NCBI GenBank assembly: GCA_002813895.1
Contig: CP024912.1
Coordinates: 682,001 to 746,000, forward strand
DNA: 64,000 nucleotides
Direction: 5' to 3'
Source of the DNA: Cyanobacterium sp. HL-69
GTDB taxonomy: Bacteria; Cyanobacteriota; Cyanobacteriia; Cyanobacteriales; Cyanobacteriaceae
Shown here piece by piece: positions 59,328-60,610 of the stretch. The translations under genes and the position numbers were made by a program. Position 1 is the first letter of the stretch, and the number at the start of each line of letters is the position of its first letter. The notes beneath the pieces were generated by a model. That model was not told the origin of the DNA, made no database searches, and was given only the letters and a program-made list of their open reading frames with translations.

Positions 59328-59822
59328 ATGAATCGTTTATTAAAAGTAGTTATAATTTTATTTCTTGCCGTTGGCTTTATCCTTGGCAGTGCTACTCCTG
59401 CCTATGCTCAGGAAATGGTTAATTTAACCTATGCAGATTTAGATGATCAAGATTTTTCTAATCAGGAATTGGTGGGGGCTGTGTTTGCTGCCTCTAGCAT
59501 GAGAAGGGTATCCATGCGTAATTCTGATTTGACTAATGCCATGATGACAGAGAGCGTATTATTAGACGCTGATTTACATGGGGTTAATTTTTCTGGGGCG
59601 TTAATTGACCGAGTTACTTTTGATTTTTCTGATCTTAGTGATGCTATTCTTACAGGTGCGATCGCCACTAGAACCAGATTTTATGACACCGACATCACAG
59701 GGGCAGATTTTACCGATGCGGTAATTGATCGTTATCAAGTTTCCTTGATGTGTGAAAGAGCCGAAGGAGTTAACCCTATAACGGGTATATCTACCAGAGA
59801 CAGTTTGGGTTGCAAGGATTAA
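59328..59822 (+). CDS. Exported pentapeptide-repeat protein (thylakoid-lumen type)
   Basis: 164 residues. Signal peptide ~1-27 (ends TPAYAQE), then pentapeptide repeats A(D/N)LxX from about 35 to 140 (LTYADLDDQDFSNQELVGAVF, DLTNAMMTES, DADLHGVNFSGALIDRV, DLSDAILTGAIA, GADFTDAVID). The C-terminal CERAEGVNPITGISTRDSLGC with two cysteines is the hallmark of the lumenal TL15/TL17-like family of cyanobacteria and chloroplasts. Role unknown; location probably thylakoid lumen or periplasm. Confidence 0.82.
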   Translation: MNRLLKVVIILFLAVGFILGSATPAYAQEMVNLTYADLDDQDFSNQELVGAVFAASSMRRVSMRNSDLTNAMMTESVLLDADLHGVNFSGALIDRVTFDFSDLSDAILTGAIATRTRFYDTDITGADFTDAVIDRYQVSLMCERAEGVNPITGISTRDSLGCKD

Positions 59823-59844
59823 TTAATCAATTATCCATAATATA

Positions 59845-59964
59845 GCCGTTTCTGCATCAGGAGGCACAGTAAGACCAAAAGGCAGACGTAAATCTGTCTT
59901 GAGTCATGAGCTGTTGAATGATGAAGCTCCCGACGAGAGCTAAAGCGGTCGGGTAGTAGTTCAC
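59845..59964 (+). mobile_element. 3' relic of an IS200/IS605-type tnpB with omega-RNA-like end
   Basis: In the 305-base gap before the DUF4079 gene a frame without a start reads AVSASGGTVRPKGRRKSVLS and on to NDEAPDES, stopping at 59941-59943. VSASGGTVRPK-type sequence is how cyanobacterial IS605 TnpB proteins end. Over the same bases AGCTC (59925-59929) pairs with GAGCT (59937-59941), and CCGAC (59930-59934) in its loop pairs with GTCGG (59948-59952), a pseudoknot as in the TnpB omega-RNA scaffold, ending near GTAGTTCAC (59956-59964). The rest of tnpB and the left end are absent. The remainder of the gap is AT-rich. Confidence 0.6.
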
Positions 59965-60127
59965 CACCTTCCTTATAGTTAATTAATTGTAAGCTACATT
60001 GTTTTTCATGGAAGTTAGCTATCTATTTGTTTATTCATGCAACAAAGCCATTTAGAATTATCAATTCTCAATTATTTACCGCTATACTTCATAGTAAGTT
60101 AAGAACTATAAAGAACTACTAAAAAAT

Positions 60128-60610
60128 ATGAAGGAAACAATTAGAGAGATATTGCAACCAGTGGCGGACATTTTTTCTGGGTTTAATACCCCTGAAGTCG
60201 TGGTACATTGGGGACATCCCTTTTTCATGGGCATTGTAATTTTCTTTATGGGTAGTGCCGTAGCTGTTACTGGTTGGCGTAGTCGTCTTTTAACTACGGA
60301 AGGAGAAGTGGCAGAAAATAAAATGAATCATCGCAAAATTGCTCCTTTGATGACCTTATTTATCATTATGGGTTACAGTGGTGGTTTATTATCCTTGATA
60401 ATGCAAGGAGAGCCTATTTTATCTAGTCCTCACTTTTGGACTGGTTCATTGGTAATCGGTTTATTAAGTGTAAATGGTTTAATCTCTGCCACTGGCTTTG
60501 TAGGTAACAAAGATAGTTTACGCACTGCCCATGCTTACCTTGGTAGTATTGCCGTAACTGTAATGGTTATCCATGCAATTTTAGGATTAAAACTAGGACT
60601 TTCTATCTAG
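60128..60610 (+). CDS. DUF4079 membrane protein
   Basis: 160 residues, four predicted helices. Family features: VVVHWGHPFFMGIVIFFMGS, the loop WRSRLL, KIAPLMTLFIIMGYSGGLLSLIMQ and RTAHAYLGSIAVTVMVIHAILGLKLG. The regularly placed histidines in helices recall b-type heme ligation in cytochrome-b561-like bundles, but that is a guess. Conserved in cyanobacteria and plastids, function unknown. Follows the IS605 relic; the ClC gene is 77 bases further. Confidence 0.75.
   Translation: MKETIREILQPVADIFSGFNTPEVVVHWGHPFFMGIVIFFMGSAVAVTGWRSRLLTTEGEVAENKMNHRKIAPLMTLFIIMGYSGGLLSLIMQGEPILSSPHFWTGSLVIGLLSVNGLISATGFVGNKDSLRTAHAYLGSIAVTVMVIHAILGLKLGLSI

Follow-up and report, generated by a model that had tools for sequence, protein, structure and literature searches.

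In ISDra2 of Deinococcus radiodurans, the 3′ end of tnpB overlaps the right end of the element (PMC8612924, PMC10097598), and the guide RNA (omegaRNA or reRNA) is described as being composed of the tnpB 3′ end, the right end and about 16 nt of flanking DNA (PMC8612924). The layout reported for this RNA comprises stem 1, a pseudoknot between positions -5U to -3C and -105G to -103A, stem 2 and a terminal stem (PMC10097598). Core-deleted IS605-type transposons and PATEs, the latter retaining both ends, have been described in haloarchaea of the genus Haloquadratum (PMC3119063), and free-standing IS605 stem loops have been reported in Borrelia plasmids (PMC2775950). A search of titles and abstract openings revealed no work on the cyanobacterial IS605 case presented here.

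The window analyzed in this study is a stretch of 64,000 nucleotides of Cyanobacterium sp. HL-69, located within contig C1 of a genome of 3.30 Mb in three contigs (G000). It contains, on the + strand, a 123-bp sequence (59842-59964) that is the end of an IS605-type tnpB element, consisting of the last 33 TnpB codons and the right end. Like the Borrelia stem loops, this sequence is an IS605 end that lies, without its gene, beside an unrelated gene; unlike them, since they are reported to be phylogenetically conserved, it is absent after the orthologous gene of genome G003 (PMC2775950). It also differs from the PATEs, as these are described, in that the right end alone is present (PMC3119063).

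The relic and its relatives

The relic was originally predicted to begin at position 59845; the homology in fact starts three bases earlier, at 59842. Positions 59842-59940 encode the 33-residue tail IAVSASGGTVRPKGRRKSVLSHELLNDEAPDES, which is directly followed by the stop codon TAA (59941-59943). In a single comparison, this tail showed 75% identity over 32 residues (E 1e-14) with residues 371-402 of the TnpB of L012, an intact relative from genome G010. The L012 protein contains the Pfam domains HTH_OrfB_IS605, OrfB_IS605 and Cas12f1-like_TNB; the 33-residue tail, which is too short on its own, gave no Pfam match. The right end contains (i) the tetranucleotide GAAG (59923-59926), which is invariant or nearly so among the relatives, at the foot of (ii) a hairpin (59929-59953) with the arms CCCGAC (59929-59934) and GTCGGG (59948-59953), and (iii) the terminus GTAGTTCAC (59956-59964), which had been correctly recognized in the original prediction and is part of the right end shared by the relatives. 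This arrangement of GAAG, hairpin and terminus corresponds to the subterminal-hairpin end known from IS200/IS605 elements, in which GAA pairs with TTC at the DNA level; the GAAG of the relic is presumably the DNA-level guide for the cleavage site. The GAAG-hairpin-TAGTTCAC layout recurs with many self-complementary stems (127 distinct strings at 231 loci, as counted by a regular expression with nested readings included).

The TnpB-derived coding sequence, the subterminal right-end hairpin and the conserved terminus mark the locus as a relic of an IS200/IS605 tnpB element. Neither TTTAAC nor a left end was found at 59842, and the relic holds the right end only, whereas a PATE or MITE keeps both ends around a deleted core. 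It is an ordinary IS605 right-end relic.

A second copy of the relic, with 96% identity (E 5e-53), is located on contig C3 of the same genome (C3:48821-48945), so the sequence in the window is not a chance resemblance. No tnpB was found next to this copy, within the 5.5 kb around it. A common left boundary of the two copies was considered and rejected, since the C3 copy reaches 33 bases further into tnpB. Relic DNA gave matches in 14 of the 60 genomes searched (the native genome included) and none in the plasmid collection.

Within the family (15 genomes, again including the native one), the L012 TnpB gave a match of some kind in at least 13 genomes at E ≤ 0.001. Near full-length TnpB copies with 84-100% identity are present, among the matches listed, in G010 (three, one of which is the query), G003, G011 and G002. 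Near full-length relatives with the same end therefore occur in at least 4 of the 15 genomes, which bears out the proposal that an IS605 right end has survived here alone, with the C-terminal coding end of tnpB retained and both the nuclease gene and the left end gone from the locus. The full-length relatives encode a TnpB of about 400 aa within an element of about 1.4 kb, which is flanked on the left by TTTAAC and ends on the right in TTCAC. Inspection of 11 loci on the left side, including one with an internal deletion (L036), revealed TTTAAC as the start motif in nine and CTTAAC in L029; the start of L022 was not placed. The 3′ ends of the relatives, where they meet unrelated flanks, read TTCAC, or TCAC in L014 and L015. 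The motif TTTAAC differs from the target motif given for ISDra2, TTGAT. A scan of named genomes identified 175 stretches encoding a relative, and the best 80 of these 175 are all cyanobacterial by title.

The closest known elements are thus the cyanobacterial IS605-type elements that carry tnpB only (IS1341-like, e.g. L012), with which the relic shares the TnpB tail, the GAAG-hairpin-TAGTTCAC arrangement and stem 2 of the guide-RNA scaffold. Compared with them, it is missing stem 1, the left end and almost the whole of tnpB.

Other right-end relics were also observed. L016 (G014) and L004:2779-2944 (contig C3 of G000) consist of TTTAAC and a few bases of the left tip fused to the tnpB tail; the fusions lie at different points of the tail, which indicates independent internal deletions. 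L235 (G160) and L268 (G091), both from one genus, share one right-end relic whose flanks are almost identical in the two, and this relic has therefore been inherited vertically.

An intact tnpB with a matching 3′ end, for which a search of the genome had been suggested, was sought in G000 with the L012 TnpB as the query (E ≤ 1), and no TnpB of the subfamily of the relic was found. Of the seven places recovered, two are the relics, with 76% and 71% identity, and the other five are pieces of distant TnpBs (25-31%), so an omegaRNA made from the relic would meet only TnpBs of the latter kind in this cell. The two intact TnpBs of G000 (398 and 407 aa) are 29-31% identical to the subfamily, and their right ends differ. 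A left-end query (E ≤ 0.001) matched 6 of the 15 family genomes and gave no match in G000; a right-end query matched 8 of the 15, the two relics of G000 among them. Of the Y1 transposases encoded by G000, one is intact (C1:187899) and one is broken.

Guide-RNA scaffold in the relatives and in the window copy

Two alignments of right ends were used to predict the structure of the guide RNA. The first (A2, 28 right ends) was built from 31 sequences, of which five were dropped by eye; the window reference took the place of the first sequence, and the copies from C3 and G001 were added. RNAalifold predicted 23 pairs in this alignment, 13 of which show changes on both sides, and the clearest pairing is that of CATCA (59855-59859 in the window) with TGATG (59919-59923), the two arms of stem 2. 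The second alignment (A3) contains 39 sequences, of which 34 are right ends (the two copies of G000 among them) and five are tnpB-less mini-elements (see below); in its selection, 7 of 39 candidates were dropped by eye.

The layout derived from A3 comprises (i) a 5′ hairpin (stem 1), (ii) stem 2 and (iii) a pseudoknot of the stem-1 loop with the TTC of the 3′ end. With its columns picked by eye after the alignment had been viewed, and with many of the sequences related, this layout is paired in 87% of cells, compared with 61% in shuffles, and reaches a covariation score of 0.675, compared with 0.197 (0 of 500 shuffles as high). Sliding it by 1-3 columns left 37-48% of cells paired. Of the five covariation measures, two remain within the range of the shuffles, namely the number of pairs changed on both sides (10 versus 8.9; 123 of 500 as high) and that of further pair types (37 versus 34; 52 of 500 as high). 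All six pairs of stem 1 show changes on both sides. No such change is seen in the pseudoknot, where two of the three pairs are broken in 7 and 8 of the 39 sequences; the pseudoknot is therefore consistent with the data but not proven.

As predicted from this covariation, the omegaRNA of the relatives resembles that of ISDra2 in layout: the order of stem 1, stem 2 and terminal hairpin is the one reported for the latter, and the 3′ TTC would be available for a pseudoknot. The comparison thus yields a covariation-supported omegaRNA layout and the target motif TTTAAC for this cyanobacterial TnpB group.

The homology of the window copy begins inside stem 1. The 3′ arm of this stem, AGCCGT (59844-59849), is present; the copy reads TTATCCATAATATAGCCGT at the stem-1 site and supplies neither the ACGG arm nor GAA, the presumed partner of the 3′ TTC, whereas the C3 copy has the complete stem-1 hairpin ACGGATGGAATAGCCGT. 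The window copy can still form stem 2 and the terminal hairpin. The scaffold in the window is thus incomplete, with the stem-1 5′ arm and GAA absent, and it differs from that described for ISDra2 in the loss of stem 1 and of the pseudoknot partner and in the lack of a cognate TnpB found in the same genome.

The original prediction had described a pseudoknot scaffold composed of two pairings. One of them, the hairpin CCCGAC/GTCGGG, is present. The letters of the other, AGCTC (59925-59929) and GAGCT (59937-59941), can likewise be read in the window copy; this pairing is doubtful because its second arm stems from a GAGAGC variant limited to the two copies of G000, while the G001 relative and the intact L012 read TCAGC. 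When folded as a single sequence, the window copy is more stable than most of its shuffles (z -1.96; 7 of 200 as good), which is weak evidence; for the C3 copy and L012, 1 and 4 of 200 shuffles, respectively, were as good. Stem 2 is absent from the predicted minimum fold of the window copy and present in that of L012.

The lack of a structural match to known omega-RNA models had been named beforehand as a point against the original proposal. Rfam searches with the whole window and with the relic (E up to 5) gave no match, but a set of 20 control loci (intact or related elements and relics) likewise matched no family of Rfam 15 other than two tRNAs. The negative result for the relic therefore says little and counts neither way; for the TnpB group as represented by these 20 loci, it means that no omegaRNA family of Rfam 15 was matched.

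Origin of the relic

The relic is flanked by a pentapeptide-repeat gene on its left (59328-59822; Pfam PF00805) and by a DUF4079 gene on its right (60128-60610; PF13301). The matches to these genes lie about 308 kb apart in G003 and on different contigs in G004, which places the relic at a synteny break. In G003, a 477-aa reading frame directly follows the pentapeptide gene, without the relic. An unrelated repeat of 65-76 bp (59974-60049, + strand) is situated directly to the right of the relic; positions 59974-60038 have an inverted copy (92% identity) at C1:629750-629814 of G000, 112 kb away, and a copy of the stretch 59974-60049 with 88% identity occurs in G001. The DUF4079 gene of G004 is preceded, at a distance of a few hundred bases, by a tRNA-Thr. 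A tRNA-Thr that shares its anticodon with this one, and whose flanks are similar, is found in G000 at about 629.5 kb of C1, beside the inverted 65-bp repeat copy. The repeat beside the relic putatively marks a rearrangement, and we infer that the synteny break removed the left part of the element.

In our judgment, the relic is very probably a dead, 5′-truncated IS605-type element. Its source would have been a full element, comprising a left end after TTTAAC, tnpB and a right end, with a length of about 1.4 kb in the relatives. This element would then have lost its left end, about 370 of some 400 tnpB codons and the portion of the guide-RNA scaffold on the 5′ side, plausibly when a rearrangement brought the pentapeptide-repeat gene and the DUF4079 gene together; the order of these events is one that we infer. 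The remainder would be a set of right-end DNA signals without a left end, which is decaying. It most likely does nothing, since the left end is absent, the genome search yielded no cognate TnpB and the omegaRNA is incomplete. The decay is not far advanced, as indicated by the intact right-end core (GAAG, hairpin, GTAGTTCAC) and stem 2, and by the whole scaffold of the C3 copy. The relic itself matters little, because truncated IS605 copies are common; it mainly marks a past rearrangement of the genome.

It is rather unlikely that the relic originated from a short mobile derivative without tnpB, composed of a left tip and the whole scaffold as in the C3 copy, which decayed and was later cut by the rearrangement. 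Both G000 copies are short and have the GAGAGC variant in common, and in the C3 copy the tnpB tail is immediately preceded by TTTAAC and GTAA, which also stand at the left ends of the L012 and L024 elements; the junction in G014 (L016) is similar, with a longer left tip. However, the C3 copy has no left-end hairpin, and an IS200/IS605 copy without this hairpin should not be excisable. Moreover, TTTAAC is absent from the left edge of the window copy, a pattern describing derivatives with a short left tip gave 0 matches in the genome contigs searched, and the six occurrences of TTTAAC in the 5.5 kb around the C3 copy equal the chance expectation.

The right-end hairpin might alternatively have been exapted, so that it now protects or terminates transcripts of the pentapeptide-repeat gene. 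This gene lies on the same strand and ends 19 bases upstream, and IS605 stem loops at the 3′ ends of genes have been reported in Borrelia plasmids (PMC2775950). We regard such a role as very improbable, given that no terminator-like site was found in 59780-60180 and that the orthologous gene of G003 is not followed by such a sequence.

By analogy with the length described for ISDra2 (PMC8612924), a guide would correspond to the 16 nt of flanking DNA at 59965-59980 (+ strand), the last 7 bases of which fall within the neighboring repeat, from 59974 on. A search of G000 for TTTAAC followed by the 14 bases after 59964, with up to 3 mismatches, recovered the relic only, and the reversed-pattern control gave one match too. 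The scan of 59780-60180 detected no promoter-like site on the + strand and a single one on the minus strand, with 1.2 expected by chance. The original proposal that the relic is transcribed as a trans-acting omegaRNA, with the bases after 59964 guiding a TnpB encoded elsewhere, draws on the intact stem 2, terminal hairpin and TTCAC end and on the two intact TnpBs of G000, but is unsupported and exceedingly improbable in view of the missing stem-1 5′ arm and pseudoknot GAA, the low identity of these TnpBs to the cognate protein (29-31%, with different right ends), the lack of a further match to TTTAAC plus guide and the promoter-like site found only on the minus strand at chance level.

Shortened right ends and tnpB-less mini-elements

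To estimate how common truncated right ends are, the pattern TGANNNNNGAAGCN{12,42}TAGTTCAC was run on a hand-picked set of 35 near-closed genomes. It gave 78 matches in 20 of the 35 genomes, and the reversed pattern gave 0. After merging of identical sequences, 75 distinct right ends remained: contiguous TnpB homology extends over 1.1 kb or more in 42, is shorter in 24 (some of these being interrupted rather than cut) and is absent from nine. With 24 shortened right ends and nine without TnpB homology among the 75, truncation is ordinary.

An excess of relics of scaffold length, which would hint at selection for the scaffold, was also considered. In eight of the 24 shortened right ends, no more than 160 nt are left (binomial p 0.017 relative to a uniform cut). 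When five rows were dropped, from a list picked after the data were seen, the count fell to 4 of 19 (p 0.30), so that no robust evidence for such an excess remained. The dropped rows are L268 (orthologous to L235), L263, L298 and L249 (mini-elements) and L293 (taken for a similar short element).

The mini-elements were observed in other genomes of the order. They have no tnpB, measure about 230-420 nt, extend from TTTAAC or a near variant to TTCAC and keep the whole omegaRNA scaffold; they also hold a conserved stretch outside the TnpB homology and a stem 1 of the form GTCTTGG/CCAGGAC. They are located at L247:1308-1542 (+ strand; G156), L249:1179-1549 (+ strand; G117), L263:1351-1693 (+ strand; G172) and L298:82-500 (minus strand; G167), which represent four genera, and in L309 (minus strand), an IMG/VR contig. 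The five sequences are 83-88% identical over 193-199 nt. Among the described systems, the PATEs, reported as IS605 derivatives that have lost the core, come closest to them (PMC3119063).

A relative of the mini-elements with 72-78% identity was observed in L315, from plasmid pn1 of Nostoc sp. UHCC 0926 (record 137820-140954); the gene table of this record, which is incomplete, lists no annotated feature in the stretch. This Nostoc plasmid was the one match of L263 in the plasmid collection, and L263 gave no match among phages. In viral contigs, the pattern GTCTTGACCAYCAATGCCG was found in 9 stretches, of which L309 alone contains a mini-element; the other 8 have no TAGTTCAC downstream within the stretch examined. 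A second mini-element pattern recovered L309 again and nothing further from the viral contigs.

Judging from their sequences, the mini-elements would be better candidates than the window relic for the idea of a guide acting in trans, and L247, L249, L263, L298 and L309 are possible stand-alone guide-RNA elements. They offer a place where trans-acting guide RNAs could be examined. A broader reading, to which we assign a low probability, is that IS605 elements of this order have repeatedly shed tnpB while keeping both ends and a complete scaffold, and persist as guide-carrying parasites of a borrowed TnpB. If so, the mini-elements would supply their own guide to the TnpB of full-length relatives, and the nuclease would retain or spread them too. 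The C3 copy, with its whole scaffold, would then be a degenerate member of the group and the window copy a dead one, and the best candidates would lie outside the window, in G156, G117, G172, G167 and the IMG/VR contig.

Two further loci were noted beside these elements. L300 (G167) diverges more strongly, and in our alignment its stem 2 is unpaired. L259 (G185) contains a left end and a right end without tnpB.
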